NCBI RefSeq assembly: GCF_003053565.1
Contig: NZ_QAXS01000008.1
Coordinates: forward strand, 1-64,000
DNA length: 64,000 nucleotides
Direction: 5' to 3'
DNA from: Halanaerobium saccharolyticum
Lineage (GTDB): Bacteria > Bacillota > Halanaerobiia > Halanaerobiales > Halanaerobiaceae
The notes below the pieces were generated by a model, which did no database searches, was not told the DNA's origin, and saw nothing but the letters and a program-made list of their open reading frames with translations. The position numbers and the translations under genes are program-made. Below, in pieces: positions 17,442 through 40,958 of the stretch. Position 1 is the stretch's first letter. Each line of letters begins with the position of its first letter.

Positions 17442-17486
17442 AAAATAGCTAATCAACTGTTTCCCGCTGACTATTTTAATAAAATT

Positions 17487-17536: not shown

Positions 17537-17567
17537 AGTTAAGCTAAAAGTTTAGATTTTATATCTA

Positions 17568-18794: not shown

Positions 18795-18807
18795 TTTTTT
18801 ATCTCTC

Positions 18808-19923: not shown

Positions 19924-19979
19924 AAAATAGTATATTTATATCATCTTATTGAAAATTTTAATTTTAATCCTGACAGGTC

Positions 19980-20759
19980 TTATTTGCCAGGATTTTTATT
20001 TACATACTCCTTCACCCGCTGATATATCTCTTCAGCTCTCTCATTCTGCTCCATCGAATCATAAATAACCTCCAGATATCCCCGCTCCTTAATAATCTCA
20101 ATTGTCTCCTTAAAATTAATATCATAGATCCAGCCGAGCTGCATTACTTTTAAATCATTGATTGTCTCCAGTTTATCATAGTTAATTGACTCTCGCTTTA
20201 ACACTTTTTGATAAATTTCATCCTGAATCTCCGGCTCAGTCGATAGTTTAATCACATAATCTTTCTGGCTGCGGGTTTTATACCTTTCCACAAAAATATT
20301 AAAAATATCCAGTTTGTCGGCATCTCTGATCAGTCGAGCAAAAAACAATTCCTCATCACTGGCAAATAGTTCCGGGCTCAGGTCAGCTTTATTATGCTGC
20401 TCAACAGCTTTGAAAATTATATTCTGCTTACTTTCAGCTAAAGAGTCAGTTAAACTGCTTTCCTTAATTACTTCAACTCCCAGCTGACCGTGGTCCTCTG
20501 ATTTATAATCGGAAAAAGTCTTATACTTTTTATACTGTTTAAAACGGCCGATATCATGGAGGAGTGCAATTATTCTGGCCAGGTTTTCTTCCTCCTCAGT
20601 TACTGTCATGCTGCTAATGATCTCTTCCATATTTTTAACCACCCTTTTACTGTGGTCAATTTTGAGCTGAATATTTTTCTGATCCTTTTCAGTTTCCAAA
20701 TTGAACTGCTCTGTATATGAATCAAAGTATTTTTTAGTCTGCTGATATAATTCATTCAT
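19980..20759 (-). CDS. HD-domain metal-dependent phosphohydrolase
   Basis: 259 aa. The HD signature is complete: H in LKIDHSKRVV, HD in IALLHDIGRFKQY, the histidines in SEDHGQLG and VEQHNK, and aspartate in LIRDADKLDIFN. Enzymes of this group hydrolyse nucleotides or other phosphomonoesters; the substrate cannot be read from sequence. GAGGAGG before the ATG and a TTTACA-N17-TATAAT promoter support expression as a single gene. It converges on the unknown gene ending at 19923. Confidence 0.85.
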   Translation of the reverse strand: MNELYQQTKKYFDSYTEQFNLETEKDQKNIQLKIDHSKRVVKNMEEIISSMTVTEEEENLARIIALLHDIGRFKQYKKYKTFSDYKSEDHGQLGVEVIKESSLTDSLAESKQNIIFKAVEQHNKADLSPELFASDEELFFARLIRDADKLDIFNIFVERYKTRSQKDYVIKLSTEPEIQDEIYQKVLKRESINYDKLETINDLKVMQLGWIYDINFKETIEIIKERGYLEVIYDSMEQNERAEEIYQRVKEYVNKNPGK

Positions 20760-25475: not shown

Positions 25476-26348
25476 TTAGTCATTAAAAAACTGATATTTT
25501 TCTATTGAAGATCTTTCTTTTTGATATTCTTGAGGAGAAACCCCGACTTCTTTTTTAAAAGCTCTGTAAAAAGTTGAATAATCACCAAAATTTAATTGGG
25601 AGCAGACTTCACTGCAGCTGTTATTGTCAAGCAGCAGTCTTTTGGCTGTCATGATTTTTTTGTAGTGGATATAATGAATAATTGAAACCCCGGTGTGTTT
25701 TTTGAAAATGTGTGATAAATAAGATTTATTTAAAAAGAATTTATCTGATAGAAAATCTAAAGAAAGAGATTTATTGATATTTTCATTGATATAAGTAATA
25801 ATATCTAAAATTCTTTCGTTATATCTTATAGTGTTATTTTCATTTTTTTCTTTTTGTGTAAATAGCTTATTGATTAAGATTAAGAGCTGAACAAAAATTG
25901 TTTCAATCATTATTTCTGATTCCTCGGTTTTCTGTTCTGCATATTTGGTTATTTTTTTAAAGTAATTATAAATTTCTTGATCTCGGTCATAGATTTTATT
26001 GTGATGTGCTTCTTTGCGATTTTCAAAACACTCAAGGAGATTGAAATCATAAGAATCATATTTTGATAAAACCCAGGGAAAAAAGTGGATAACAATTCTC
26101 TTATAGGGTATATCCTGATTGAAGATTGGTTTGTGGAGTTCACGATTATTCATTATTAAGAGAGTGTTTTTTTCTAATTCATAAGCATGTCCCTCTATAT
26201 AATAGGTAACGTCACCTTCCAAAAAATAAAATAGCTCATAAAAATCATGAAGATGCATATTAAATCTATCGGAGTCAGATATCACTTCTGATTTTTTATA
26301 AGTTACTTCTAAAAGGCTATTACTTAAATAGCAATCTTTGTCATTCAT
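25476..26348 (-). CDS. AraC-family transcriptional regulator
   Basis: 290 aa: an N-terminal cupin-like sensor (MHLHDFYELFYFLEGDVTYYIEGHAYEL) and a C-terminal double helix-turn-helix (SLDFLSDKFFLNKSYLSHIFKKHTGVSI...YSTFYRAFKKEVGVSPQEYQ). Members of this build usually activate sugar-use genes after binding a sugar. The ATG at 26348 is supported by GGTGAG; a longer frame to 26402 lacks a ribosome site. It is divergent from the glycan-use operon starting at 26572, its probable target. That operon's -10 box has no recognisable -35 box, which fits activator dependence. Confidence 0.9.
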   Translation of the reverse strand: MNDKDCYLSNSLLEVTYKKSEVISDSDRFNMHLHDFYELFYFLEGDVTYYIEGHAYELEKNTLLIMNNRELHKPIFNQDIPYKRIVIHFFPWVLSKYDSYDFNLLECFENRKEAHHNKIYDRDQEIYNYFKKITKYAEQKTEESEIMIETIFVQLLILINKLFTQKEKNENNTIRYNERILDIITYINENINKSLSLDFLSDKFFLNKSYLSHIFKKHTGVSIIHYIHYKKIMTAKRLLLDNNSCSEVCSQLNFGDYSTFYRAFKKEVGVSPQEYQKERSSIEKYQFFND

Positions 26349-26445
26349 GTTAATCTCACCAACTTTCTTTTGCTTAATTATATTATACCTAAAGAATTGC
26401 AATATTTAAAGCAGAAAACTCAAAGCGGCAACAAAATTATTGTTA

Positions 26446-26571: not shown

Positions 26572-29028
26572 TTGTTAGAATATAAAATTGAAAAAGATGA
26601 TTTTTTAAATCACTGGAAAATATCAAAATTGAAAGAGGAAAATTATAAGTCAGCTCCAGATACCATGGAAGCTAAAATAGATAATTCCTGGCTGGATGAA
26701 GGGTTTTCTATTCATCAGTATCCCTGCAGAAAAGAATTCTTATCTGAATATAAAACAAAAGAAATTGATTTTAATAATGATTTATCAATGGCTGATATTT
26801 ATTTTCCATTTGGAAATCCCAAAGTTGAAAGGTCATGGTTTTGGTTTCTTCCAACTTATTTGGAGAGCTGGGCTGAATCTCAGTTAAAAGTTCCAAAAAG
26901 TAGAGAATATGAATTTGAATTAAAAACCTGTGGAGGAGTTAAAATCTGGGTTAATGGTAAAGAAGTTATTGACTTTAGACCTTATACCAGAAATATTGAA
27001 AAGACAGAGAAATTTTCAATTAAATTGGATAAAGGAAAGCATAAAATTAAAGTGTTTTTTAATGATTTAGCAGAAAGAGATACCTTATATTATTTTTCTC
27101 TGCAGTCAAAAAATAAACTTACTATAAAACAGCTTATTGAAACGGAAAACGATTTGTCAAAGTTAAAAGATATTGAAAATCTTTTGGAAAGTGCTCACTT
27201 TAAAGAGGACACATACAAAAAAGGAGAAATCAAACTGCATTTCTCAGATTCATTTTCTAAAACTTTAAAACTTAAAATTGAGGCTGGTGGAGACTTTATA
27301 GATTTTATAGAGGGAGCTAAAAAAACAGTAGTTCTTCCTAAAGATAAAAAAGAAGTTGAAATTGGAAATGTTAATGAATATCCGATGGGCTTTAATCATA
27401 TTAAGATATCAATTCTTATAAATAATGACTTAAAAATGAGTAAGCATTTAACTTTGCAGGTTTATCAAAAAGAACTTCTTTTTCCAGCAGCAGATAATCT
27501 GGATACAAGAAAAGAAAATAGTTTAAACTTTATTATAGAACATGGAGAATCGATCGCTCAGAAGGCACTTGCAATGGTAGCTAAGAAAAAAGAGCTTAAG
27601 GAAGCTAAAAAAATATTAATCAATGAATTAGAAGGGATAGAGAAAAGAAAAGACTGTAGTGATTTTTATTTAGTACCAATTTTATGGTTATGGATTAAAT
27701 TTAGAGGTGAAGTATTTGATCAAAATTTTTGGAATTATACTGAAAAAGTAATAAGAAATTTTAGGTACTGGATTGATGAAGAGGGCAATGATGTTATGTG
27801 GTACTTTAGTGAAAATCACGCTCTGCTCTTTCATGTATCCGAACTGTTAGCTGGCCAAATATTTCCCGAGAAAGAATTTGCTAATGCAGGTATTGAAGGA
27901 AAAGCTCATTATTTGAAAGCTAAAGAGCGGCTGGAAGAATGGTTTCAAAGATTTTTTGCAGAGGGTTTTTCGGAGTGGAATTCAACTGCTTATATTCCAA
28001 TAGATTTGATAGGGTTTTTTGCTCTTTATGAATTGGCAGATGACAAAGCTTTAAAGAAACTGGCGAAAAAAGCTATAGATATGACTTTTGAATTAATTGC
28101 TTATAACAGTCACCATGGTTTAATGGCCTGTTCTCACGGTCGGAGTTATGAAAAAGAACTTAAGGGTAGATATGTAAATTATACAAATGCTCTGAGTCGA
28201 GTTTCCTGGGGTGTAGGATATTTAAATGAAGCAACAAATGCTCAGGCACTCTATTGTCTTTCAGATTATAAACCTAATCCTGAACTTAAAAAATATGTTG
28301 ACTGGGATAAAGCGGAAAGTATGATCTTTAAAAATACTCAGGGTAAAAATAATTTTGTAGATTTATATCTGTATAAGAATAGAGATTATTTAATAACTTC
28401 AGCCTTAGACTTTAAACCGGCAAAAAAAGGTTATCAGGAACACATAAACCAGCTAACTATAGATGCTGAAGCATTGTGCTGGGTAAATCATCCCGGTGAA
28501 AATGTTAAAATAGGTTTTGGTAGACCATCCTACTGGGCTGGAAATGGTTATCTCCCTAAAGTTGCTCAGTATAAAAATGTTCAGTTTCTGCTTTTTGATA
28601 TTGCAGATGAGCATCCTGTTGATTTTACTCATGCCTATTTTCCCACTTATGCTTATGATGAGTATTTAGAAATAGAAAACTATTATTTTGCCCGTAAAGA
28701 TAGTGCATTTTTTGCCATAACTGCAGCTAATAAGCTTAATTTAGCTGCAGCTGGTATTAATCAGGATAGAGAATTAAAATCAGCTGGCAGAAAAAACAGT
28801 TGGCTTATCAGGGCAGCTAATAGGGATGAGTTTAATTCATTTGAGAATTTTATTGAAGAGATATCTAATTCTTTTTTAGATATAAAGGAGCAGGAGATTA
28901 ATTTTAATGATCCTAAACATGGCAGATTTAAATTCAACTGGAAAGATAATTTACTTTTAAATGATGAGCCCATAGAAATAGAGCATACAGATCCAGGCGG
29001 AAAGTTAATTATAGATAAAAAACTGTAA
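26572..29028 (+). CDS. Large protein of a glycan-use operon, probable carbohydrate-active enzyme of unknown family
   Basis: 818 aa, cytoplasmic (no signal peptide). Residues 85-185 look like a beta-sandwich or galactose-binding-like module (VKIWVNGKEVIDFRPYTR...KGKHKIKVFFND). Residues 330-570 are helical and rich in motifs seen in alpha/alpha-toroid enzymes (YFSENHALLFHVSELLAGQ, EWNSTAYIPIDLIGFFALYE, HHGLMACSHGRSY), with conserved-looking Glu, His and Tyr. The rest resembles the beta-rich tail of polysaccharide lyases and related hydrolases. I cannot name the family. Being first in an operon with a sugar importer and a GH31 suggests intracellular action on an imported, perhaps uronic-acid-containing, oligosaccharide. 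TTG start with a distant AAAGGGG. Confidence 0.8.
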   Translation: MLEYKIEKDDFLNHWKISKLKEENYKSAPDTMEAKIDNSWLDEGFSIHQYPCRKEFLSEYKTKEIDFNNDLSMADIYFPFGNPKVERSWFWFLPTYLESWAESQLKVPKSREYEFELKTCGGVKIWVNGKEVIDFRPYTRNIEKTEKFSIKLDKGKHKIKVFFNDLAERDTLYYFSLQSKNKLTIKQLIETENDLSKLKDIENLLESAHFKEDTYKKGEIKLHFSDSFSKTLKLKIEAGGDFIDFIEGAKKTVVLPKDKKEVEIGNVNEYPMGFNHIKISILINNDLKMSKHLTLQVYQKELLFPAADNLDTRKENSLNFIIEHGESIAQKALAMVAKKKELKEAKKILINELEGIEKRKDCSDFYLVPILWLWIKFRGEVFDQNFWNYTEKVIRNFRYWIDEEGNDVMWYFSENHALLFHVSELLAGQIFPEKEFANAGIEGKAHYLKAKERLEEWFQRFFAEGFSEWNSTAYIPIDLIGFFALYELADDKALKKLAKKAIDMTFELIAYNSHHGLMACSHGRSYEKELKGRYVNYTNALSRVSWGVGYLNEATNAQALYCLSDYKPNPELKKYVDWDKAESMIFKNTQGKNNFVDLYLYKNRDYLITSALDFKPAKKGYQEHINQLTIDAEALCWVNHPGENVKIGFGRPSYWAGNGYLPKVAQYKNVQFLLFDIADEHPVDFTHAYFPTYAYDEYLEIENYYFARKDSAFFAITAANKLNLAAAGINQDRELKSAGRKNSWLIRAANRDEFNSFENFIEEISNSFLDIKEQEINFNDPKHGRFKFNWKDNLLLNDEPIEIEHTDPGGKLIIDKKL

Positions 29029-29047
29029 TTATTTACTTTTTTTACTA

Positions 29048-29071
29048 ATTAAATGGTTAAAACCATTTAAT
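29048..29071. promoter_or_regulatory. Perfect 11-bp-arm inverted repeat before a sugar-binding protein gene
   Basis: ATTAAATGGTT, two A, then the exact reverse complement, 82 bases before the binding-protein start. It has no T run. It may be an operator or an RNA hairpin separating the first gene from the highly expressed transporter genes. Confidence 0.55.
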
Positions 29072-29152
29072 ATAAATATTTCTTTAGAGAAAGGGGTGGT
29101 AGATTTTTAGTTGTTCTTTTATTTCTTAAAAAAATTTAGGGGGTTATATTTA

Positions 29153-30406
29153 ATGAGAAAAAATTTGTTTATTACGATTACTGCTTTGCTTTTAGTTGGT
29201 TTGATGGCTGTTCCAGCTTTTGCTCAGGAAACTGTTTTAGACTTTGTCTGGTTTAGTGATGGAGTAGAAGGTGAAGTATTAAAAGATATTATTGATGATT
29301 ATCAAGAAGAAAATCCAGACGTTGAATTTAACATTATTGAGGTACCATATAATGAACTAAATACTAAAATCAAGACTATGGTAGCTGGTGGAAACCCTCC
29401 AGATCTTGCCAGAGTATCAAACCCTGGTGAATTATCATCTGCCTTATTAAACCTTAATGATAGTATTGGGCAGGATTATTTAGATAACTTTGTAGAATCT
29501 ACTCACCCTTATGTAATGGTTGATGGAGAAATGTTGGCTGTACCAATTGATGTAACAGCAAATGGTATTATTTATAATAAAGACTATTTTGAAGCTGCTG
29601 GAATTGATGTTCCCGACACTGAAGAAGAATTAGATGATCTGTGGACCTGGGAAGAATGGGCTAATGCTCTAGAAAAAGTTGTTGAAGAATCCAATGCACG
29701 TTACGGTTTAGCTTATGATTACAGTCCCCACCGCTGGTCTACATTACTCTATCAGGCAGGCGGATCTTTCTTCTCTAAAGACTGGAGCGAAGTTACAATT
29801 AACTCACCTGAAGGTGAACGAGCTGTAGAATTTTTCGTTGAATTACATGATAGAAACATAATTCCTGAATCTATCTGGCTGGGTGGAGAAAACCCTAATA
29901 CACTTTTCCGTTCAGGTTTAACAGCAATGCATTTTGCTGGAAACTGGATGCTGACAAATTATCGTGATAATATTGAAAACTTTGACTGGGGAGTAGCTTA
30001 TATGCCTAAGGGCAAAATAAGATCTTCTGTAGTTGGCGGTAAATTTGTGGCAGGATTTAAAGATTCTGATAATAAAGAAGCTGCTGTAGATTTCTTAAAA
30101 TACTTCAGTTCGCAGAAAGTAAATGCTAAGTTCTGTGAAGAATCTCTATTCTTAAGTGCCAGAACAGATAACAGTAAGCTTAATTACTCATTTGGTTCTG
30201 ATATGTTTGAGATCTTCAGTAATGAATTAGCTGTATCTCCTCCAGAAGCAGGTTCTGATTGGGCTTATAACGAAGCAATGTCAAGAATTTACGATGACAT
30301 CAGACAAAATGTTGTAAAGTCAATTCAAAAAGAAATAACACCAAAAGAAGCTGTAGAAAATATTGAAGAATTAGCAGAATCAGAAATTGAAGATATGGAG
30401 AATTAA
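29153..30406 (+). CDS. Sugar ABC transporter substrate-binding protein (family 1)
   Basis: 417 aa, signal peptide about 1-24 (GLMAVPAFAQE), no lipobox. The fold is the MalE-type: DFVWFSDGVEGEVLKDIIDDYQ, GGNPPDLARVSNPGE, VPIDVTANGIIYNKDYF and the GNWMLTNYRD segment are typical of family 1 binding proteins for oligosaccharides. GGGGG precedes the ATG. A strong stem-loop and two MalF/MalG-type permeases follow, with no ATPase. The ligand is probably the oligosaccharide handled by the neighbouring unknown enzyme and GH31. Confidence 0.93.
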   Translation: MRKNLFITITALLLVGLMAVPAFAQETVLDFVWFSDGVEGEVLKDIIDDYQEENPDVEFNIIEVPYNELNTKIKTMVAGGNPPDLARVSNPGELSSALLNLNDSIGQDYLDNFVESTHPYVMVDGEMLAVPIDVTANGIIYNKDYFEAAGIDVPDTEEELDDLWTWEEWANALEKVVEESNARYGLAYDYSPHRWSTLLYQAGGSFFSKDWSEVTINSPEGERAVEFFVELHDRNIIPESIWLGGENPNTLFRSGLTAMHFAGNWMLTNYRDNIENFDWGVAYMPKGKIRSSVVGGKFVAGFKDSDNKEAAVDFLKYFSSQKVNAKFCEESLFLSARTDNSKLNYSFGSDMFEIFSNELAVSPPEAGSDWAYNEAMSRIYDDIRQNVVKSIQKEITPKEAVENIEELAESEIEDMEN

Positions 30407-30420
30407 AATAGATTATATTT

Positions 30421-30446
30421 CCTGGCCTGTTTTTAAACAGGCCAGG
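30421..30446 (+). other. Strong stem-loop between binding-protein and permease genes
   Basis: CCTGGCCTGTTT, two T, then its exact reverse complement (12-bp perfect stem). There is no T run, so read-through is expected. Such structures protect the upstream binding-protein message from decay. Confidence 0.85.
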
Positions 30447-30468
30447 ATAATTAATAAGGAGGCATTTT

Positions 30469-31344
30469 ATGTACAGGTGGAAAAAGAAGATAGCACCCTA
30501 TTTATTTGTATTACCCAACCTAATAATATTTGGAATATTTATAGTTTTTCCGGCCTTATTTGGTTTTTATGTTTCTTTTACAGAGTGGGATGTACTTACT
30601 TCTCCCGAATTTATTGGCCTTGGAAATTTTATTAAGCTTTTTCAGAGTGCAGAATTTTGGACTATTTTAAGCAGGACTTTAATTTATGTATTTTCTGTAG
30701 TACCAATTACCTTTGGCTTGAGTATGGTTTTAGCAATTATATTAGATAGAAATATTAAGGCAAAAGGTTTTTTTAGAGCTATATTTTATTTACCTACCAT
30801 GTTATCATTCATAGTTATTGGTGTTTCCTGGCGCTGGATACTTGGAAATAACTTTGGGATTTTAAATTACTTACTCGATTTAGCTGGAATGGCACCAGTT
30901 AACTGGCTCACAAATGCCACTACAGCAACTATTATGGTTATATTTGCCACAGTCTGGGCCCGAGTTGGATACTTTATGGTAATGTTTATTGCTGGACTGC
31001 AGGGGATTCCGGGAGTATATTATGAGGCTGCCAAAATAGATGGAGCCAGTAAATGGCAGCAGTTTAGGCATATCACCTTCCCTTTATTAAAACCAACCAG
31101 TCTGGTAGTTGTAGTTTTATCTACTATTCAGGCTTTTAAAATGTTTGGTTTAATTAAAGTTATGACTACAGGAGGCCCTGGAGATAGTACGACTTATTTA
31201 GTTCAAGAAATCTATCAGCAGGCCTTTCAGGTTGGAGATATGGGTTACGCCTCTGCTATGTCTGTAATGTTATTTTTAATCCTTGGTTTACTAACAATAG
31301 TACAATTTAAAGTATCTAATAGAGGGGGTAATGCATATGAATAA
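30469..31344 (+). CDS. Sugar ABC transporter permease (MalF/UgpA type)
   Basis: 291 aa with six predicted helices. LFVLPNLIIFGIFIVFPALFG at the N terminus and the EAA loop YYEAAKIDGASKWQQFRHIT, which contacts the ATPase, are characteristic. Ribosome site AAGGAGG. It pairs with the next permease, which it overlaps by 8 bases. The ATPase is presumably a shared MsmX/MalK-like protein encoded elsewhere. Confidence 0.93.
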   Translation: MYRWKKKIAPYLFVLPNLIIFGIFIVFPALFGFYVSFTEWDVLTSPEFIGLGNFIKLFQSAEFWTILSRTLIYVFSVVPITFGLSMVLAIILDRNIKAKGFFRAIFYLPTMLSFIVIGVSWRWILGNNFGILNYLLDLAGMAPVNWLTNATTATIMVIFATVWARVGYFMVMFIAGLQGIPGVYYEAAKIDGASKWQQFRHITFPLLKPTSLVVVVLSTIQAFKMFGLIKVMTTGGPGDSTTYLVQEIYQQAFQVGDMGYASAMSVMLFLILGLLTIVQFKVSNRGGNAYE

Positions 31345-32158
31345 TAAAGTTAAAAATATTCTGTGGTATGTAATTTTACTATCATTCAGTTTAATATTTG
31401 TTCTACCTATAATCTGGATTTTTATATCTTCTTTGAAAACCAGTAATGAAATTTTTTCCTGGCCGCCAACAATTTTACCTAATGAAGTAACTTTTTCAAA
31501 TTATATTACTGCCTTCAGTAAGGGTAATTTTGTTACTTATTTTAAAAACAGTATTTTTGTTGCTGTAACAGCAACAGCTTTGACTTTATTAATCAATTCA
31601 ATGGCAGGTTATGCTTTAGCCAAATTTGATTTCAAGGGCAATAAAGTAATTTTCTTTCTTTTTATTGCAACTTTAATGATCCCACTGCAGGTTATAATGG
31701 TTCCAATTTTTATAGTATTGAGAAATTTAGGTCTGTATAATTCACTTTGGGGAATTATAATTCCACCTGCTGCTACACCAACAGGAGTTTTTCTGGTTAG
31801 ACAGTATATGACCACAATTCCGGATGAGGTTTTAGAGTCAGCCAGAATTGATGGAGCTTCTGAATGGAGAATATTTTCAATGATAATTCTGCCCTTATCT
31901 AAACCTGTATTAACTGCTCTAACTATATTTTCATTTATGTGGAGATGGAATGATTTTCTCTGGCCTTTTGTAGTCTTAAGTACTGAAAGCAAATATACTA
32001 TTCAGGTAGCAATTGCAAATTTTGTTGGTCAGTTTTCTGTTGATTGGAATAGTTTATTAGCAATGAATATTGTGGCAATGATACCTGTATTATTAGTATT
32101 CCTCTTTTTCCAGAGATATTTTGTTAAAGGTATTGCTATGTCAGGTATGAAAATGTAA
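31337..32158 (+). CDS. Sugar ABC transporter permease (MalG/UgpE type)
   Basis: 273 aa, six helices, with FVLPIIWIFISSLKTSNEI, FPPT-like WPPTILPNEVTFSNY and the EAA loop VLESARIDGASEWRIFSMIILP, all typical of MalG-type subunits. ATG 31337 is preferred to the in-frame ATG at 31331 because GGGGG lies 8 bases before it. It overlaps the upstream permease gene, so the two subunits are co-translated. Confidence 0.93.
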   Translation: MNNKVKNILWYVILLSFSLIFVLPIIWIFISSLKTSNEIFSWPPTILPNEVTFSNYITAFSKGNFVTYFKNSIFVAVTATALTLLINSMAGYALAKFDFKGNKVIFFLFIATLMIPLQVIMVPIFIVLRNLGLYNSLWGIIIPPAATPTGVFLVRQYMTTIPDEVLESARIDGASEWRIFSMIILPLSKPVLTALTIFSFMWRWNDFLWPFVVLSTESKYTIQVAIANFVGQFSVDWNSLLAMNIVAMIPVLLVFLFFQRYFVKGIAMSGMKM

Positions 32159-32181
32159 ATAATGGTGTCTGGAGGTTTGTT

Positions 32182-34584
32182 ATGATTTTAAAAGAATATC
32201 CATTTAAATTGGATAAAGTTGAAGATAATATAATAACATTTGTAGATCAATTTAAAGACAAAAACAACTTGAAAGTTAAAGTATTTGTACTTGAAAAAGA
32301 TATTATAAGGGTAATGTTTATCAGAGATAAATTAACTATGGAAAAAACATGGATGGTAGCACCTAACTTAGCAGATGTCCCTTATCAGGGTAGAAATAAA
32401 TTTGATGTTTCTCCTTTTTCTCTACCTAAATATAATTATTATCAAAAGGAAGGTTCTTTTGTGGTTGAAACTGAGCGTCTAAGAGCTAAAATAGATTTAG
32501 ATGGGTTTAAAGTCACCTGGTATGCCAGACAGGGGAATGACTGGGTTAAAATTGCAGCTGATAGGAAAACTCAGAGTTATAATCTAAATCAGCATTTTGG
32601 TAGCGGAATTTATCATTACTTAGAAAAAGCTGAAAATGATAAGTATTATGGACTGGGTGAAAAAGCTGGAGAGATAGAAAAAAATGATAATCGTTACCGG
32701 ATGACTACTATTGATGCCATGGGTTATGATGCAGAAAAATCAGATCCACTTTATAAATACATACCGTTTTATATTACCAGAAATACTGAAAGTGAAATTT
32801 CCTATGGTCTTTTTTATGATAATTTGAGCGAAGCTGTATTTGACTTTGCCAGGGAAAAAGACAACTATCACGGTCATTATAGATACTATTTTGCTGAAAG
32901 CGGAGATTTAGATTATTATATGATTTTGGGACCTGAGATGAAAGCAGTGACCAGAAAGTTTTCCTGGTTAAGTGGGGAAAATATTTTTGAACCAAAATGG
33001 AGTCTGGGCTATTCTGGTTCAACAATGACTTATACTGATTCTCCCAATGCTCAGGAGGAATTGATGAAATTTATTGCAGACTGTGACCGCCATGATATTC
33101 CCTGTGACTCATTTCAATTATCATCAGGTTATACTTCAATTGATGATAAGAGATATGTTTTTAACTGGAACTACTCCAAAATACCTGATCCAGAAAAAAT
33201 GTCAGCAACTTTTAATAAAAATGGAATTAAACTCTGTGCCAATATTAAACCATGTTTATTAATAGATCATCCCAGATATGAGGAAGCAAAAGAAAAAAAT
33301 CTTTTTATTAAAAATGAAAAGGGAGAGGTAGAAGTTTCACAGTTCTGGGACAACCTGGGTTCTTATCTCGATTTTACTAATCAAGATACTGTAGACTGGT
33401 GGAAAGATAATGTGAAAAACCAACTGCTTGAATTCGGAATTGATTCTACCTGGAACGATAATAATGAATATGAGATCTGGTCAGATGATGCCTATGCGAA
33501 TGGTTTTGGCAGCAAAATAAATATGAATTTAATTAGACCTCTGCAGTCTTTATTGATGATGAAGTCATCATTTGAAGCTCAAAAGGAACATGCTCCCAAC
33601 AAAAGACCCTATTTGATTTCTCGCTCTGGCTGTCCGGGAATGGAACGCTATGTTCAGACCTGGTCTGGAGATAACTATACCAGCTGGAAAACTTTAAAAT
33701 ATAATATAAAAATGGGTCTGGGGCTTACTATGTCTGGAGTTTATAACTTTGGTCATGATGTTGGTGGTTTTGCTGGCCCGGCTCCTGAGCCTGAACTGCT
33801 TGTTAGATGGGTACAGAATGGGGTTTTTTACCCCAGATTTACTATTCATTCCTGGAATGATGATCAGAGTGTAAATACACCCTGGATGTATCAGGAAAGT
33901 GTTGATTCTATTAGAAAGGCAATTAAATTTAGAGAAAAAATTAAACCCTATTTATACAATCTTTTATATGAGTCTCATATAAATCACACCCCAATTATTA
34001 AACCAACCTTTTACGAGTTTGATGAACATAAAGCTTATAAGCAGGATTTAGAATTTATGCTAGGAGAATATATGCTGGTAGCTAATGTGGTTGAAAAGGG
34101 TGCAGAAAAAAGAAAACTTTATTTACCGGGGGATACAAGCTGGTATGAGTATAATACAAATAAGATCTACCAGGGAGGAGAAGAAATAATAGTTGATGTT
34201 TCCCTGGATACGATTCCACTCTTTATTAAGGAAGGTGCCATTATACCTATTCAGGATCAGGAGATATCCTTTGCTAATCATAAAAAAGAAAAAAGAGCTT
34301 TTATGATATATCCATTCCTTGATTCCGGTAAAGAAGAATATACTTTATTTGAAGATGATGGAGAGAGTTATAACTATTTAGATGGTGAATATAAGAAAAT
34401 AAAAATAGAGATGAAATCTGATCCAGCTAAAATAGTGCTCCAGCTAACTTCCAGGGGGAATTATAAGCTGCCTTATCAAGAAATTAAAATTTATTTCCCA
34501 GAATTTGAAGAGCGAAATATTATTATAAATAATGAGAGTGTTGATTTGGATCAAAATCATTCTACAACTTTAGTTTTAGAATAA
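32182..34584 (+). CDS. Glycoside hydrolase family 31 (alpha-glucosidase/alpha-xylosidase-like)
   Basis: 800-residue retaining alpha-glycosidase, cytoplasmic (no signal peptide). The N-terminal beta-sandwich (about 1-240) precedes a TIM barrel. The nucleophile aspartate lies in STWNDNNEYE (about 424), the acid/base aspartate in WSGDNYTSWKTL (about 495), and GHDVGGFAGPAPEPELLVRW is also diagnostic. C-terminal beta domains include FEDDGESYNY. Family members act on alpha-glucosides, alpha-xylosides, isomaltose or sulfoquinovosides; the sequence alone does not settle which. It follows the sugar importer by 23 bases and should trim the imported oligosaccharide. Confidence 0.92.
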   Translation: MILKEYPFKLDKVEDNIITFVDQFKDKNNLKVKVFVLEKDIIRVMFIRDKLTMEKTWMVAPNLADVPYQGRNKFDVSPFSLPKYNYYQKEGSFVVETERLRAKIDLDGFKVTWYARQGNDWVKIAADRKTQSYNLNQHFGSGIYHYLEKAENDKYYGLGEKAGEIEKNDNRYRMTTIDAMGYDAEKSDPLYKYIPFYITRNTESEISYGLFYDNLSEAVFDFAREKDNYHGHYRYYFAESGDLDYYMILGPEMKAVTRKFSWLSGENIFEPKWSLGYSGSTMTYTDSPNAQEELMKFIADCDRHDIPCDSFQLSSGYTSIDDKRYVFNWNYSKIPDPEKMSATFNKNGIKLCANIKPCLLIDHPRYEEAKEKNLFIKNEKGEVEVSQFWDNLGSYLDFTNQDTVDWWKDNVKNQLLEFGIDSTWNDNNEYEIWSDDAYANGFGSKINMNLIRPLQSLLMMKSSFEAQKEHAPNKRPYLISRSGCPGMERYVQTWSGDNYTSWKTLKYNIKMGLGLTMSGVYNFGHDVGGFAGPAPEPELLVRWVQNGVFYPRFTIHSWNDDQSVNTPWMYQESVDSIRKAIKFREKIKPYLYNLLYESHINHTPIIKPTFYEFDEHKAYKQDLEFMLGEYMLVANVVEKGAEKRKLYLPGDTSWYEYNTNKIYQGGEEIIVDVSLDTIPLFIKEGAIIPIQDQEISFANHKKEKRAFMIYPFLDSGKEEYTLFEDDGESYNYLDGEYKKIKIEMKSDPAKIVLQLTSRGNYKLPYQEIKIYFPEFEERNIIINNESVDLDQNHSTTLVLE

Positions 34585-34710
34585 ATTAATTTTTGATTAA
34601 TTAGGAAAATAGAGATATATTATGAAAATCTGTGGCTGGGAATTTAATATAATTAAATGACTGGCCCTTTTATTTAATGTTTTTTCTTAAATTTACTTGA
34701 GGAGTTTAAA

Positions 34711-36006
34711 ATGAATTTAAAAATAGATTATAATTCGTCTGATAAATTAGAAAGTTTATTAAAAAATAATGACTTTAAAATTAAATTAACTGGAAATTAT
34801 AATTCTTTAAAGCAGAGCTATGAAATCAAGGGTAGAAAAATTGATAACCGGCTGGCTATTCATCCAATGGAAGGTGCAGATGCCAATCCAGATGGTTCAC
34901 CTGGAATTTTAACCAAAAGAAGATATCTAAGATTTGCAGCTGGTGGTGCTGGTTTAATCTGGATGGAGGCAATTGCTGTAAATAAAAATGGTAGAGCAAA
35001 CAAAAAACAGTTATTTTTAAATGAAGACACTGTAGTTGATTTTAAAGACTTAAATAAATCAATTAAAGCGGAGGCAAAAAAAGCTGAAAGAAATCCATAT
35101 TTAATTGCTCAATTAACCCATTCCGGCCGTTTTGGAGAAAATAAAAATATTATATTCAGAGATGAGTATCTTGATAGTACTGCATATATTAAACAGGGTT
35201 TTCATAAATTAAAAGATCCTGAATTAGATAAAATAAAGAGTTATTATTTAAAGGCTGCCAGACTGGCCAAAAAAGCTGGTTTTGATGCTGTAGATATTAA
35301 GAGCTGTCACCGTTATTTAATTTCAGAACTACTGGCTGCTCATAAAAGAAAGGGTAAATATGGAGGCAGCTATCAGAATCGAGCAAGGTTTCTTAAGGAT
35401 GTTATTAAATTAATTAACGAAAATGTTGATATTGACCTTGCGGTAAGGTTAAATATTTATGATGCCATTCCCTATCCAAATGGCTGGTCGACAGACAGCA
35501 GGGGAAGAGAAAAATTAAGTGACTCTCAAAAACTATTAAACGAGCTCGATCAGCTTGGAGTAGAGATAATTAATGTTACTGCAAGTACCCCTTATTTAAA
35601 ACCGCATATAAATAGACCTTCTGAGAGAGGAAAATATAATCCACCAGAATCACCCATAAATGGTATAGTTCGTTTAATGAAATTAAATAGATTTACCCAA
35701 GAAAATTTTTCTGGGATAGTAATTGGAACTGGCTTCAGTTGGTTCAGACAGTTAGCACCAGATGTAATTGCAGCTATGATTGAAAAGGGGTGGATTACTG
35801 TGGCGGGGTTTGGAAGATTAGCCTTTGCCTATCCAGATTTTGCAAGGGATATAATTCAAAAAAACAAACTAGATCCTGATAAAGTTTGTCTTACCTGTAG
35901 TAAGTGTGCAAAATTAAAAGCGGCTGGTAGAAATTCAGGCTGTGTTATTAGAGATCGAGAGATTTACTTAGCTAGTTATAATAAATTAAAGAAAAGTCAA
36001 AAATGA
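34711..36006 (+). CDS. Old-yellow-enzyme family NADH:flavin oxidoreductase
   Basis: 431 aa, FMN-binding TIM barrel. LAIHPMEGADANPDG, RFAAGGAGLIWMEA, the substrate-side histidine in QLTHSGRF and ELLAAHKRKGKYGGSYQNRARF are standard OYE motifs, and a cysteine set TCSKCAKLKAAGRNSGC closes the protein. It lacks the C-terminal FAD/NAD domain of dienoyl-CoA reductases. Its place between GH31 and a sugar isomerase/dehydrogenase pair is unusual. It may reduce an unsaturated or keto sugar intermediate, an inference from context only. Ribosome site GAGGAG. Confidence 0.87.
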   Translation: MNLKIDYNSSDKLESLLKNNDFKIKLTGNYNSLKQSYEIKGRKIDNRLAIHPMEGADANPDGSPGILTKRRYLRFAAGGAGLIWMEAIAVNKNGRANKKQLFLNEDTVVDFKDLNKSIKAEAKKAERNPYLIAQLTHSGRFGENKNIIFRDEYLDSTAYIKQGFHKLKDPELDKIKSYYLKAARLAKKAGFDAVDIKSCHRYLISELLAAHKRKGKYGGSYQNRARFLKDVIKLINENVDIDLAVRLNIYDAIPYPNGWSTDSRGREKLSDSQKLLNELDQLGVEIINVTASTPYLKPHINRPSERGKYNPPESPINGIVRLMKLNRFTQENFSGIVIGTGFSWFRQLAPDVIAAMIEKGWITVAGFGRLAFAYPDFARDIIQKNKLDPDKVCLTCSKCAKLKAAGRNSGCVIRDREIYLASYNKLKKSQK

Positions 36007-36031
36007 CTAATATATAATGAGGGTGAATTAA

Positions 36032-36946
36032 ATGTATTATACAGGCTTTGCTGATGAGGCGGCAGATTCGATAGAAAAGCAGATACAAGTTACTAAGGAA
36101 TTGGGCTGGGAATATATAGAATCCCGCAATATTGATGGTACAAATCTTACCGATATTAGTGATGAAAAATTTGAAGAGGTAGCTGAAAAATTGAATGAGG
36201 CTGGAATTAAAGTTAATTGTTTTGGCAGTGCAGTTGCCAATTGGGGAAAAGATCCCAGAGATGAAGAATCTTTTAAAAAAAGTATGGAAGAACTTAAGCG
36301 AGCTATCCCCAGAATGCAGAGACTGGGTACCAAAATGATTCGAGGCATGAGTTATGGAATTCCGAAAGAACTCTCTCCAGATAATCCTGAATTGGAAGAC
36401 AAAATTATTGATAACTTAAAAAAAATGGTTAAAATGTGCGAGGATGCTGGAATTATTTACTTACATGAAAATTGTATGAATTACTTTTCTCAGTCCTATG
36501 AGAAAATGGATAAATTAATTTCTAAAATTGATTCCCCTAATTTTAAAATTGTTTTTGATACTGGAAATCCTTTGATGGCTGATAATAGAATAGGGGAACC
36601 TCCATATGGAAAACAGACAAGCTGGGAAGCCTATCAGCAATTAAAAGATGAAATTGCTTATGTACATATTAAAGATGGAACTTTTGTAAAAGAAACAGAT
36701 AGTATTTTTCCAGAGATGGATTACTGTTATCCAGGAGATGGTAATGGTGAGGTGAAAAAAATAGTTAAGGATCTGCTGGCAGATGGTTATGATGGTGGTT
36801 TTTCCATTGAACCTCATATGGATGCTGTTTATCATGAAGAGCGCGATAATAATCAGGATGATGCCAGGTATAATACTTACCTGGAATATGGAAAAAGATT
36901 TATGCAGTTAATGGAAGAGATCAAGAAAGAAGTTGAGGAGGATTAG
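36032..36946 (+). CDS. Sugar isomerase/epimerase-like TIM-barrel protein (AP endonuclease 2 superfamily)
   Basis: 304 aa. The xylose-isomerase-like metal site is readable: glutamate in YLHENCMNYFS (about 150), aspartate in IVFDTGNPL, histidine in YVHIKDGTF and glutamate in FSIEPHM. Enzymes of this superfamily isomerise, epimerise or dehydrate sugars and keto-inositols with a divalent metal. A Gfo/Idh dehydrogenase follows 7 bases later, so the two probably act in sequence. Substrate unknown. Confidence 0.87.
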   Translation: MYYTGFADEAADSIEKQIQVTKELGWEYIESRNIDGTNLTDISDEKFEEVAEKLNEAGIKVNCFGSAVANWGKDPRDEESFKKSMEELKRAIPRMQRLGTKMIRGMSYGIPKELSPDNPELEDKIIDNLKKMVKMCEDAGIIYLHENCMNYFSQSYEKMDKLISKIDSPNFKIVFDTGNPLMADNRIGEPPYGKQTSWEAYQQLKDEIAYVHIKDGTFVKETDSIFPEMDYCYPGDGNGEVKKIVKDLLADGYDGGFSIEPHMDAVYHEERDNNQDDARYNTYLEYGKRFMQLMEEIKKEVEED

Positions 36947-36953
36947 CTAGCAG

Positions 36954-38111
36954 ATGATAGAAATTAAGATTGGAATTATTGGTATTGGAAATATGGGCAG
37001 CAGCCATGCTAACTCTATAGTAAAAGATAAAGTTAAAAATGCAAAATTAACCGCTGTCTGTGATATTGATTCAGCCAGAATCAAATGGGCTAAGAATAAT
37101 CTTGATTCAGAAATTGAGTACTTTACTAATCCCCAAAGATTTTACCAGGAGGCAGATATTGAGGCTGTATTGATAGCTACTCCCCATTATGACCATCCTC
37201 CCCTGGCTGTTGAGGCATTTAAAAATGAACTCCATGTTTTAATTGAAAAACCAGCTGGAGTTTATACCAAAGCAGTCCGAGAAATGAACGAAACTGCTCA
37301 AAAAACAGATAAAGTTTTTGGGATTATGTATAATCAGCGAACCAGAGCTATTTATCAGAAGCTTAAAGAACTAATTGATTCGGGTGAGCTGGGAGAAATT
37401 AAAAGAACAAACTGGATTATCGACTGGTACCGTCCTCAAAGTTATTATAACAATGGCGGCTGGCGGGCAACCTGGGAAGGCGAAGGTGGTGGAGTTTTAT
37501 TAAATCAGGATCCACATCAGCTTGATTTATGGCAGTGGATCTGTGGAATGCCGAAAAAAGTTAGAGCCTTTGCTGAAAACGGTAAATATCATAATATAGA
37601 AGTAGAAGATGATGTTACAGCTTATGTAGAATATGAAAATGGAGCTACAGGTGTTTTTGTAACTTCAACCGGAATTGCCCCGGAAACTAATAGGCTTGAG
37701 ATTAGCGGGAATAAGGGTAAGATAATTGTTGAAAATAATGAGATTCATTTTAAGAGGCTAAGAACTCCAGAGAGAGAATTTAATCATGACTTTAAAGGTG
37801 GATTTGGCAGTCCAGAATGCTGGGAATGCAAAATACCGCTTGCAGGAGATAATCCTGAGCATTTAGGGATTTTAAATAACTGGATTGATGCAATTTTAAA
37901 TGGGGCAGAACTTATTGCTCCTGGTGAAGAAGGAATCAAAGGTTTAACAATTTCTAATGCAATGCACCTTTCTGCCTGGACAGATGATTGGGTTGAACTG
38001 CCGCTTGATGAGAATTTATTTAAGGAAAAGCTGGATAAAAAAATTGAAAATTCTACTTTTGTTAAAGAAAATATAGAAGCTGAAACTATGGATGTTGAGG
38101 GAACATTTTAA
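36954..38111 (+). CDS. Gfo/Idh/MocA-family oxidoreductase
   Basis: 385 aa. The N-terminal Rossmann domain shows GIIGIGNMGSSHA, ATPHYDHPPLA and the catalytic-site lysine in LIEKPAGVYT (about 98). The C-terminal domain has GGVLLNQDPHQLDLWQW, with the histidine/aspartate pair of active family members. Such enzymes oxidise or reduce a sugar hydroxyl with NAD(P). It shares the transcript with the TIM-barrel gene upstream and is followed by a strong terminator, so it ends the first glycan operon. Confidence 0.92.
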   Translation: MIEIKIGIIGIGNMGSSHANSIVKDKVKNAKLTAVCDIDSARIKWAKNNLDSEIEYFTNPQRFYQEADIEAVLIATPHYDHPPLAVEAFKNELHVLIEKPAGVYTKAVREMNETAQKTDKVFGIMYNQRTRAIYQKLKELIDSGELGEIKRTNWIIDWYRPQSYYNNGGWRATWEGEGGGVLLNQDPHQLDLWQWICGMPKKVRAFAENGKYHNIEVEDDVTAYVEYENGATGVFVTSTGIAPETNRLEISGNKGKIIVENNEIHFKRLRTPEREFNHDFKGGFGSPECWECKIPLAGDNPEHLGILNNWIDAILNGAELIAPGEEGIKGLTISNAMHLSAWTDDWVELPLDENLFKEKLDKKIENSTFVKENIEAETMDVEGTF

Positions 38112-38231: not shown

Positions 38232-38264
38232 GACTATAGTAAAAAACATCAGGATGTGATAATT

Positions 38265-40958
38265 ATGAATATTGATAAGTTAAAAAATAGTTATGATCTG
38301 CAGCTGCCAACTTGGGGACCCTATACAAAAAAATATTTGGGTATCTCACATATAGCCGATCAAAAGCGGGGGATTCGCTTTGATCTCAGTGTTTTCCCTG
38401 GTTATTACAGAAGAAAAGTTAAAATTCCGAATGTAAGTTGGGAATCTGATTATCATCCCTGGGAAGCTGCCTCTGATTTAAAGTATTATTCTAATCGCCA
38501 TCAACTGGAATGGAAAGATAAGCTTTACTGTGATATTTCTTATTCAGAAATTGATGATCATTCGAGATTGATTAGATGTAATTGTGTTAATCACACAGAC
38601 TCGATTCAGAATATTGTAATGCATTTTATGGGATATATCAACTTACCCAAAAAAAGATTATTAAAAATAAATGCTGCAGCTGATTCAGTCTGGATAAATG
38701 CTTTAGAATATACTGAGCTAAAATACTCGAATCCAAGCCCACAGGACAATCTAATGCCTGATGGTTTATTAAGGGGCGAAGTCCATGAGCCAGAGTTTTT
38801 TGAGGGTACAGGTTTGGGGCGTGATTTTGGCAAAGATAAGGATGATAGAGTAAATTATGAGTTAAAATTAGAAAAAGATATTGATGATGCTGTTTTGTTA
38901 ATTAGATATCAAAATAAATCTGAGCAGGCACTTTCTTTTAATTTAGAAGGTATAATTGATAAAGAAATAGAGTTTCCAAGTGCTGAGAATGTAGGAATTA
39001 AAATGATTCAGCTTGGCAATCTACCTACGGGCGAACACAAAATCAAATTAATATCTAACAACGGTGGAGCTGAAATAAAAATTGATGGCTTTTTAGTAAC
39101 AGCTTTAAAAGATAAGAATAAAGTTAGTTTTACTGCAGAAGAACACAATCCAGTTCCCGAAGTGTTAGAAAAATTAAGAGATAATTCTCTTATATTAAAA
39201 TATGAAGATATTGATCAGTACTATGGAATAAAATGGTTTTATAATGATTTTGAAATTAGAGAATTTGAAAGCAATAATTTGGATTCTTTTATGAAAAGAA
39301 TGGTTCATGATCATGTTTCAAAAAAGTTAGTAGATGATGAAAATGGAAAGCCAGGAATGCACTATACAAATGTCTTTTTGCGCCCAATAACCATAGAAGC
39401 TAATTCGAGCCAGCTAATATATGGGATGGTGTGTAATGGAAGCCGCCAGGAGGTTGAAAGTAAGCTTAGCCACTTTAAATCAGATAAAGAAAATATGGAT
39501 GAGCTCTACAATAATGCTCGGGAAGATGCTTTTGAATTTAATCAGAAATTGGAAGGTGATAAGTATAAATTTAGTCAACAGAAGATGGCTGCTACTACAT
39601 TGACAAATGTGGTTTATCCAACTTATATTAGAAAAGGGTATATCAAACATTATCCTCCAGGGCGCTGGTGGGATTCATTATATACCTGGGATTCTGGTTT
39701 TATTGGTCTCGGTCTAAGCGAACTTGATGAGGATCGGGCGATTGAATGCCTCAATGCCTATCTGACTGAACCGGGTGATCAACACTCAGCTTTTATCCAT
39801 CACGGCAGTCCGGTTCCTGTACAAATTTATTTGTTTTTAGAACTCTGGAACAGATTACAGTCTAAAGAATTTTTAGAGTATTTTTATCCACGTTTAAAAC
39901 AATATCATCAGTTTTTAGCCGGTAGGCTGGGTAGTTCAACTACCAGAAACTTAAAATCAAATCTTTTAAAAACCTGGGATTATTTCTATAATTCTGGAGG
40001 TTGGGATGATTATCCAGCCCAGGTCTATGTCCATGATCAGAATCTGGAAGACAGAGTGACTCCTGTAATAAATACTGCTCAGGCAATAAGAACTGCTAAA
40101 ATATTAAAAATGGCTGCCTGGGAGCTCGGTCTGAAATCAGATATAGAAGAATTTGATCAGGATATCGATACTTTTACTAAGGCTCTACAAAAACACTCCT
40201 GGGATGAAGAATCCGGTTATTTTTCATATGTGCTTCATGATCAAAATGGTAAGCCAAAGAATATTTTAAAAGATAATACCGGTAAAAATTATAATATGGG
40301 ACTTGATGGAGTATCACCACTGGTTGCTGGAATCTGTAATCAGGATCAAGAAAAAAGATTAATCGATAAGTTGTTTTCTAAAGAAAGAATGTGGACAGAG
40401 ATTGGAATTTCTACAGTAGATAAAACCGCTCCTTATTACAAAAACGATGGCTATTGGAACGGGTCAGTCTGGATGCCACACCAGTGGTTTATCTGGAAAA
40501 CTCTTCTTGATTTAAATAGAGCTGACCTAGCCTATAAAATTGCTATTACCGGTCTTGAACTCTGGCAGAACGAAGTAGATAAATCATATTCATGTTTTGA
40601 ACACTTTCTGCTGCAGTCAAAAAGGGGGGCAGGCTGGCATCATTTCAGCGGGCTATCTACCCCGGTCATGAGCTGGTTTGCTGCTTATTTCACAGCAGGG
40701 AAATTGACTGTAGGTTTTGATACCTGGGTTATTAATCAGGAATTTAAAAATGATAATAGTTCTCTGGAAGCCAGGCTCAGAATATTTGGTAATAATGATG
40801 GTGTAAATATTACCGTTTCGCTTAATTCAAGTAATGAATATAATGTTCTCTGGAATGGTAAATTGATCAAACATGAGGCTATTAAAGGTGGTATTCTAAA
40901 TATTCAAATTCCTGGGGGAGAGTTCGAAGGTGATTTAGAGGTTTTAAAAGCTGAATAA
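38265..40958 (+). CDS. Clan GH-G (GH63/GH37-like) alpha/alpha-barrel glycosidase
   Basis: 897 aa, no signal peptide. An N-terminal beta-sandwich (about 1-330), which includes a segment like a carbohydrate-binding module (GEHKIKLISNNGGAEIKIDGF), is followed by an alpha/alpha toroid from about 430. Motifs such as GRWWDSLYTWDSGFIGLGLSE (about 467), GGWDDYPAQVYVHDQN with a likely acid aspartate (about 579), YWNGSVWMPHQW (about 730) and SCFEHF match GH63-type and related trehalase-like enzymes. Sub-specificity is unknown. ATG 38265 follows AGGATGTGA. It is first in a unit with GH130, which suggests a manno- or glucoside-containing substrate. Confidence 0.8.
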   Translation: MNIDKLKNSYDLQLPTWGPYTKKYLGISHIADQKRGIRFDLSVFPGYYRRKVKIPNVSWESDYHPWEAASDLKYYSNRHQLEWKDKLYCDISYSEIDDHSRLIRCNCVNHTDSIQNIVMHFMGYINLPKKRLLKINAAADSVWINALEYTELKYSNPSPQDNLMPDGLLRGEVHEPEFFEGTGLGRDFGKDKDDRVNYELKLEKDIDDAVLLIRYQNKSEQALSFNLEGIIDKEIEFPSAENVGIKMIQLGNLPTGEHKIKLISNNGGAEIKIDGFLVTALKDKNKVSFTAEEHNPVPEVLEKLRDNSLILKYEDIDQYYGIKWFYNDFEIREFESNNLDSFMKRMVHDHVSKKLVDDENGKPGMHYTNVFLRPITIEANSSQLIYGMVCNGSRQEVESKLSHFKSDKENMDELYNNAREDAFEFNQKLEGDKYKFSQQKMAATTLTNVVYPTYIRKGYIKHYPPGRWWDSLYTWDSGFIGLGLSELDEDRAIECLNAYLTEPGDQHSAFIHHGSPVPVQIYLFLELWNRLQSKEFLEYFYPRLKQYHQFLAGRLGSSTTRNLKSNLLKTWDYFYNSGGWDDYPAQVYVHDQNLEDRVTPVINTAQAIRTAKILKMAAWELGLKSDIEEFDQDIDTFTKALQKHSWDEESGYFSYVLHDQNGKPKNILKDNTGKNYNMGLDGVSPLVAGICNQDQEKRLIDKLFSKERMWTEIGISTVDKTAPYYKNDGYWNGSVWMPHQWFIWKTLLDLNRADLAYKIAITGLELWQNEVDKSYSCFEHFLLQSKRGAGWHHFSGLSTPVMSWFAAYFTAGKLTVGFDTWVINQEFKNDNSSLEARLRIFGNNDGVNITVSLNSSNEYNVLWNGKLIKHEAIKGGILNIQIPGGEFEGDLEVLKAE

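Follow-up and report, generated by a model that had tools for sequence, protein, structure and literature searches.

An old-yellow-enzyme-type flavoenzyme beside sugar oxidation/elimination genes in a putative uronate-oligosaccharide operon of Halanaerobium saccharolyticum

Gene content of the locus

The stretch of DNA analysed here, referred to as the window, comprises the first 64,000 nucleotides of contig NZ_QAXS01000008.1 of Halanaerobium saccharolyticum (assembly GCF_003053565.1, a draft genome of 3.2 Mb that is 98.7% complete). The subject is an operon of the forward strand that encodes an old yellow enzyme (OYE)-type flavoenzyme, hereafter the OYE, and an unrecognised protein of 818 amino acids (aa), hereafter P818. 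In the tally of loci given below, an operon was defined as a same-strand run of genes with gaps of at most 300 bases. An earlier note, made from the sequence alone, had described eight genes at 26572-38111, and these eight open reading frames (ORFs) were confirmed as intact, on one strand and with short spacing. The start and the genes that it gave for the operon stand, but the end does not, as the same-strand operon carries on beyond 38111 to at least 44525. Downstream of 44525 lie genes for a second ATP-binding cassette (ABC) importer and a glycoside hydrolase (GH) of family GH42. Scans of the locus for promoters and terminators gave results at chance level. The genes are as follows.

25476..26402, minus strand: AraC-type regulator, divergent from the operon (Pfam HTH_18/AraC_binding)
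26572..29028, plus strand: P818, 818 aa, unrecognised; PA14 domain, predicted helical core followed by beta strands
29111..30406, plus strand: SBP1, solute-binding protein of a carbohydrate ABC importer (Pfam SBP_bac_1)
30469..31344, plus strand: ABC importer permease (ORF named by sequence look; genome G096 has a 54% homolog next to P818, with gene order kept)
31331..32158, plus strand: ABC importer permease (ORF named by sequence look; G096 has a 57% homolog next to P818, with gene order kept)
32182..34584, plus strand: GH31 alpha-glycosidase-type enzyme (Pfam Glyco_hydro_31 domains; PDB GH31 alpha-glycosidases)
34711..36006, plus strand: OYE-type flavoenzyme with a CxxCxxCx11C cluster and Lys at the usual substrate-binding His (Pfam Oxidored_FMN; alignments)
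36032..36946, plus strand: APE1, xylose-isomerase-like TIM barrel, candidate 3-keto-glycoside lyase (Pfam AP_endonuc_2; Gfo/Idh fusion in the same genome)
36954..38111, plus strand: GfoA, Gfo/Idh/MocA dehydrogenase, relative of a glucuronide-3-dehydrogenase (PDB 8tdi, E=1.3e-91)
38256..40958, plus strand: GH900, MGH1-like/trehalase-type glycoside hydrolase (Pfam MGH1-like_GH; 80% ortholog in the G005 locus)
41000..41980, plus strand: GH130 mannoside phosphorylase-type enzyme (Pfam Glyco_hydro_130)
42084..43226, plus strand: DUF2264 (former GH154), candidate uronate dehydratase (PDB 9o4u, 8oi4; active-site residues)
43443..44525, plus strand: GfoB, second Gfo/Idh dehydrogenase (Pfam GFO_IDH_MocA)

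The orthologous place in G005, a genome of the same genus, was recognised by the downstream ROK-APE2-GfoC-Rbs-GfoD-APE3 genes. It keeps OYE, APE1, GfoA and GH900 in order, followed by an ABC importer and then DUF2264 (86%). The gene set that the earlier note had proposed to check for conservation is therefore retained in G005 for these five genes, but P818 is rare (see below). For the GH31 enzyme, the role of an alpha-1,4-glucan lyase making anhydrofructose was dropped as a first choice, since alpha-glycosidases scored 255-260 bits and glucan lyases 91.

Sequence features and electron supply of the OYE

The OYE, a protein of 431 aa, matched Pfam Oxidored_FMN (PF00724) over residues 38-381 with 84.8 bits, against a curated cut-off of 27. 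Alignments were made with 14 relatives and with 41 sequences. In the YqjM class of OYEs the motif HxxHGY comprises a His pair binding the substrate carbonyl, followed by a Tyr. The aligned motif here is K-S-C-H-R-Y, in which Lys197 replaces the first His in 41 of 41 sequences, while the second His is kept in 40 of 41 and the Tyr in all 41. Towards the C terminus, C393, C399 and C411 are present in 41/41 sequences and C396 in 40/41; they form the pattern CxxCxxCx11C and are predicted 4Fe-4S ligands with a spacing that is presumably like that of FadH. Judged by its sequence, the protein lies within PF00724 yet is not a classical OYE of the YqjM class, from which the Lys sets it apart, and belongs to a separate branch. 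Its family profile had no PDB match at 1e-30.

The OYE barrel and the C-terminal Cys cluster are shared with the branch of FadH (2,4-dienoyl-CoA reductase) and 2-enoate reductase; unlike those enzymes, the 431-aa protein has no fused FAD/NAD(P)H domain by Pfam. In two members of the same subfamily the OYE is fused to a Pyr_redox_2 region, together with Fer4_20 in one (L086:9270-11978) and without it in the other (L087:8042-10675), and these regions are likely the donor module that the OYE of the window lacks. At a third locus, L068, the OYE gene is preceded, with one Gfo gene between, by a gene that Pfam confirmed as GltD-like and whose neighbour was judged Nfn-like from its sequence. The fusions and the GltD-like gene suggest an NAD(P)H-driven reduction via a split flavoprotein partner. 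The OYE most likely acts on a keto-sugar acid, in which it would reduce a conjugated C=C.

Distribution and gene company of the OYE

The OYE subfamily was found in 13 of 31 relatives and, in a phylum-wide sample of 398 genomes, in 30. There were 43 distinct OYE places, of which 41 were tallied; those left out were G182, at a contig end, and L091 (G356), where blastp found no OYE frame. Also outside the tally are L066 (a Subdoligranulum record) and L018, which has a broken OYE. Genes were labelled by blastp at 50 bits or more to a panel of window proteins and cluster representatives, part of which was Pfam-checked; the labels UxaA/B/C, 2-keto-3-deoxygluconate (KDG) kinase, 2-keto-3-deoxy-6-phosphogluconate (KDPG) aldolase, GH28, GH51, GH2, RhaB and NfnA were given by sequence look.

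Of the 41 OYE operons in the tally, 19 held a Gfo/Idh gene, 17 one for a fumarate-reductase-like flavoprotein, 12 one for a Zn-alcohol dehydrogenase (Zn-ADH), 10 one for an APE-type TIM barrel and 7 one for a short-chain dehydrogenase/reductase (SDR). At least one of Gfo/Idh, Zn-ADH and SDR occurred in the OYE operon at 30 of 41 loci, compared with 2 of 20 control regions, in which a gene anywhere in the 20 kb was counted; fourteen of the same genomes supplied the controls, whose positions were set at round coordinates. We concluded that the OYE is grouped with sugar/alcohol dehydrogenases beyond chance. The earlier note had linked the OYE with the reduction of a double bond in an unsaturated or keto sugar and had taken its absence from related operons as a sign against this; the sugar-oxidation/elimination genes around it, among which a conjugated double bond would be expected, support the idea, and the enzyme is indeed present in related operons.

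The commonest setting among relatives of the order consists of an ABC importer, Gfo and OYE, followed by UxaB/UxaC/UxaA-like and GH28-like genes, which by sequence look is a pectin/galacturonate layout. Three loci of family f64 (L067, L068 and L069) combine the OYE with APE_C29, a GfoA ortholog (64-65%) and Gfo_C3; at another f64 locus, L088, the OYE is split over two frames. All 8 GfoA-matching genomes among the 31 relatives also hold the OYE, a count that ignores kinship.

Several further observations concern the subfamily. A recurrent set (L070, L071, L073, L076, L079, L082, L083, L084 and others) consists of the OYE, a fumarate-reductase-like FAD flavoprotein and a Zn-ADH, often with an SDR, IlvD/EDD, URO-D, KDPG aldolase and carboxylate transporters in addition; it has the look of a separate sugar-acid pathway. 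The OYE operon includes a GH112 gene, of lacto-N-biose phosphorylase type, at L021:1824-4037 and L027:5922-8105 (Pfam-checked in L027 only). At locus L018 (10001-10630), from Halanaerobium saccharolyticum, an OYE remnant with an internal deletion, in which residues 17-100 and 356-423 of the query are left, stands beside an intact gene for a 560-aa protein. Scans of viral contigs found relatives of neither the OYE nor P818.

The oxidation/elimination gene pair

The best PDB match of GfoA was 8tdi, named 'glucuronide-3-dehydrogenase', with the E value listed above, while the next match was at 1.8e-36; by this similarity GfoA is predicted to be the Gfo/Idh/MocA sugar 3-dehydrogenase component. 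The isomerase/dehydrogenase pair of the earlier note is thus there, and its dehydrogenase can now be identified. The matches of APE1 itself in the PDB were weak and were to tagatose 3-epimerases. However, a relative of 75% is fused to Gfo/Idh in a single frame of 693 aa elsewhere in the same genome (L138:9454-11532, on G000:C21), which ties the functions of APE1 and the dehydrogenase together. The two genes are therefore most likely a module for C3 oxidation followed by elimination, a known kind of chemistry. As for a hydratase or final reductase component, no second APE or Gfo gene adjoins GfoA in the window, GfoB lying farther away.

The levoglucosan pathway (LgdA/LgdB1/LgdB2/LgdC) proceeds by oxidation, elimination, hydration and reduction (PMC7676230). 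The window resembles it in having a predicted Gfo/Idh 3-dehydrogenase with a neighbouring candidate lyase, for oxidation and then elimination; it differs in that the pathway ends by hydration and reduction, whereas the window has no second TIM-barrel gene beside GfoA and has the OYE. At L125, L127, L128, L197, L198, L199 and L200 the operon has an APE1-GfoA pair but no OYE, and some of these loci carry an additional Gfo together with an additional TIM barrel, APE_C29, a make-up that resembles that of the levoglucosan pathway. The accessible portion of PMC10628242 describes elimination and hydration and contains no reductase of the OYE kind.

A second known system, the glucuronide-3-dehydrogenase system of P2B11, is that of 8tdi, the close relative of GfoA. 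APE_C29 from L067, one of the f64 OYE operons, matches PDB 8tcs, 8tcd and 8tct at about 1e-20, structures that presumably come from the same study as 8tdi. The P2B11 system was reportedly described in a 2024 Nature paper, and we know of no OYE in it. A rule that the OYE replaces the hydratase, with one TIM barrel beside GfoA where the OYE is present and two where it is absent (L128, L197, L199), was considered and dropped, because other OYE-free loci also have one TIM-barrel gene.

The candidate uronate dehydratase

The DUF2264 protein matched PDB 8oi4 at 2.6e-108, and 9o4u and 9nwf, which are glucuronate dehydratase structures, at 1.5e-92 and about 1e-92. It aligns end to end with BcGDH, and of the ten active-site residues probed in that enzyme (E74, R78, N176, N177, W178, F181, Y229, R285, Y289 and Y354) nine are identical, N176 being replaced by Cys (Thr in 8oi4). 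According to the BcGDH study, this beta-D-glucuronate dehydratase converts GlcA to a 4,5-unsaturated end that is then removed by GH88, and the whole of GH154 is proposed to be a dehydratase family (PMC12269599).

Whereas the BcGDH product goes to GH88, in the genome of the window GH88/GH105 (PF07470) gave a partial match at E=7.9e-5, below the cut-off. PL22 was not found, and KduI/IolB (PF04962) was absent from a search that did not cover the DhuI-type isomerase route; the control genomes were positive for all three. Since DUF2264 is present and these families are absent or under the cut-off, the genome seems, from its gene content, able to make 4,5-unsaturated uronates and to lack the usual means of using them. 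Among 41 relatives, DUF2264 was found in five (G000, which is the genome of the window, and G004, G005, G011 and G022).

The protein P818

The only Pfam domain of P818 is PA14 (residues 102-170). No Pfam catalytic domain was found, an NCBIfam match covered a short stretch far below the cut-off, no PDB match was obtained with the single sequence, and the matches of the profile were unrelated, with E values of 0.23 or worse. P818 was accordingly rejected as a known hydrolase. A match to such a family, which the earlier note had named as contrary to its view, thus did not appear, and the note's statement that the protein belongs to no named catalytic family holds.

That note had also suggested P818 as the source of an unsaturated or keto sugar, which the distribution does not favour: P818 occurs in 2 of 31 relatives and 5 of 398 genomes of the phylum, and in the OYE operon at 2 of 41 OYE loci. 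On the sequence evidence, DUF2264 is a better candidate for this source, and the unsaturated sugar more likely arises through it and through C3 oxidation/elimination. In G005 the P818 ortholog (76%) adjoins a copy of the AraC-type regulator of 93% identity and ends about 160 bases from the contig end. In the unrelated genome G237, two P818 homologs directly follow genes for a Zn-ADH, an FAD flavoprotein, an OYE and a Gfo, the sole independent link between P818 and the OYE. In G096, of another family, an AraC-ABC importer-P818 cassette is shared with the window, and no other panel-matching gene adjoins it. Because of this shared cassette and the lack of an evident signal peptide (by eye), P818 probably acts on an imported oligosaccharide.

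Residues invariant in seven relatives of P818 include N415-H416, Y474, G523-R524, Y606, Q622, H624 and R651. The pattern NH-(35-62)-GxFxExxSxxY, chosen post hoc, was found in the P818 relatives and in a family of 560-aa proteins encoded next to the OYE in G005 and L018; the rest of the 1085 proteins scanned lacked it. Of two PF07940 heparinases, one also has the pattern, whereas three weaker PF07940-type proteins do not. The 560-aa family is represented by L020:4376-6055, which has no Pfam match, and by L018:8396-10075, both upstream of the OYE; the Halanaerobium saccharolyticum protein, of L018, is 80% identical to the G005 copy. Three motifs of P818 (NH, GF.E..S..Y and GRS) resemble DUF2264, a lead only. 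Comparison of P818 by hhalign gave probabilities of 0.1-0.4% with the Hepar_II_III/DUF2264 alignments A3, A4 and A6 and of 2.2% with the 560-aa family, all with thin profiles; a relationship to Hepar_II_III, DUF2264 or the 560-aa family is unsupported by profile comparison.

The structure prediction that the earlier note had called for was made with two models. A first model of 498 residues had a pLDDT of 42.6, and its VIA rows, with Z up to 8.2, mixed toroid glycosidases with unrelated helical proteins; heparinases were not among these rows, which excludes nothing. A second model, from the single sequence of residues 325-580, had a pLDDT of 63 and a pTM of 0.67. Its best rows were GH76 (Z 9.1, root-mean-square deviation 4.0, 215 residues aligned) and alginate lyases (Z 7.5-7.7), values in the chance range for helical proteins. 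Neither model had a Foldseek match at E<=0.001. It is plausible from the models that the helical domain is an (alpha/alpha) toroid.

These data bear on an alternative for P818 alone, which we hold to be only a little short of an even chance: that the protein represents a new (alpha/alpha)-toroid family of ordinary exo-glycosidases and makes no unsaturated sugar, the uronate chemistry being left to other genes. The GH76 rows above the alginate lyases, albeit all in the chance range, agree with this, as does the G096 cassette without other panel-matching genes; the conserved NH...GxFxExxSxxY, a pattern picked after the sequences had been viewed, looks more lyase-like.

Other features of the window

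At 51461-60605 the window encodes a ROK regulator and a ribose-type ABC importer along with two proteins each of the TIM-barrel isomerase type and of the Gfo/Idh family, a set that is syntenic in G005 at about 80-92% and probably belongs to a separate cyclitol or sugar pathway. Two short proteins with heptad-like repeats are encoded at 10721-11197 and 14941-15423 (RFDQIDKRLDDHDK and KLDSKVSKLDSKV, respectively). The region 16001-20000 has a low guanine-plus-cytosine content (0.283, compared with about 0.40 leftward), and a chain-length-determinant-like protein is encoded at 17568-18794.

Proposed pathway and alternatives

In the usual picture of glycan breakdown, isomerases act after hydrolysis or lysis, and redox/elimination routes have been recognised recently. 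For the operon of the window we propose uptake of a uronate-containing oligosaccharide, its cleavage by redox and elimination steps, and reduction of the conjugated C=C product by the OYE, a scheme to which we give a probability of roughly 0.4. It builds on gene content, close homologies, conserved residues, co-occurrence and the absence of canonical families, all of which are properties of the sequences. The ABC transporter would import the oligosaccharide, so that breakdown would be cytoplasmic, and GH31, GH900 and GH130 (hydrolases and a phosphorylase) would take off neutral sugars. DUF2264, possibly also P818, would put a 4,5 double bond into the uronate residue, GfoA would oxidise the C3 hydroxyl to a ketone, and APE1 would expel the aglycone through elimination. 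The product of dehydration, oxidation and elimination would be an alpha,beta-unsaturated keto-sugar acid. Its conjugated C=C would be reduced by the OYE, as an FMN/4Fe-4S ene-reductase receiving electrons from NAD(P)H via a GltD/Nfn-type partner, and the carbon could then enter central metabolism without GH88/GH105, PL22 or KduI.

Enones arising from C3 oxidation of a 4,5-unsaturated uronide, which would be strongly activated, or from C1-C2 elimination would both fit the OYE chemically, and Lys197 could bind the substrate carboxylate. From the gene set we infer the substrates, the order of the steps, the direction of the OYE reaction, the cofactors, the electron donor and the part played by P818. 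The earlier note had suggested an oxidised disaccharide; a uronate-containing oligosaccharide is more likely. GH130 in the window and GH38 in G005 hint that the glycan contains mannose, and glucuronomannan would be our guess.

Several findings weigh against this scheme. Of the 23 examined loci with a GfoA of more than 40% identity, the OYE is in the same operon at 5; since most GfoA operons lack the OYE, the chemistry of GfoA does not in itself require it. Outside the order no locus with GfoA (L126, L129-L137 and L139-L141) showed a neighbouring DUF2264, and three of the five DUF2264 genomes (G004, G005 and G011) hold PF04962 (KduI/IolB-family) genes. Most OYE operons are without GfoA and DUF2264 and hold uronate/sugar-acid genes, often with the fumarate-reductase-like flavoprotein (17/41), and thus the common substrate of the OYE may be a free sugar acid.

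The last point leads to a competing explanation, namely that the OYE acts after release, on a free keto-deoxy or unsaturated sugar acid of pectin, uronate or aldonate pathways, and has no role in glycosidic cleavage. UxaB/UxaC/UxaA-like genes (5-7 of 41 operons), TTT transporters (5), IlvD/EDD (3), and KDPG aldolase and KDG kinase (3 each), often without glycosidases, speak for it; in the window and in G005, however, the OYE gene directly precedes the lyase/3-dehydrogenase pair amid glycosidases, and the window operon has no gene that was recognised as KDG-type. We regard this explanation as rather unlikely. Also doubtful, and slightly more so, is the most specific form of the proposal, in which a dedicated FeS-OYE subfamily with a Lys pocket suited to carboxylates hydrogenates the conjugated C=C of 3-keto or 4,5-unsaturated uronides made by a dehydratase and a 3-dehydrogenase/lyase pair, in place of the GH88/GH105-KduI outlet, with P818 as the first member of a new family of exo-acting uronate lyases or dehydratases that feeds it. 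It is improbable that the OYE is no pathway enzyme but a flavin reductase with general duties in stress, quinone or redox balance that merely travels with sugar operons, for although OYE-family enzymes are promiscuous and the gene stands alone in its transcription unit at some loci (L072, L081), its company of sugar/alcohol dehydrogenases far exceeds that of the control regions and the altered active site, with its Lys197, is invariant across the subfamily.

Significance

As to novelty, no paper linking an OYE to glycoside or uronate breakdown was found in the open-access literature searched, nor was one on the glucuronide-3-dehydrogenase system itself; in the part of PMC3870299 available, an NADH-flavin oxidoreductase serves merely as a housekeeping control. 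The OYE step is called undescribed solely because that search returned none. The new route suggested in the earlier note is therefore narrowed: C3 oxidation/elimination and uronate dehydration, the chemistry around the OYE, are already known, and the new elements are the reaction of the OYE and the family of P818.

The gene set makes the idea about the OYE directly testable with a handful of purified proteins. If the proposed scheme is true, and sugar 3-dehydrogenases regularly have an ene-reductase as partner in many genomes of the phylum, current annotation misses a whole step. Unsaturated uronates could then be used even by organisms without GH88/GH105, and a new class of biocatalysts, for the reduction of keto-glycals or unsaturated keto-uronides, would become available.

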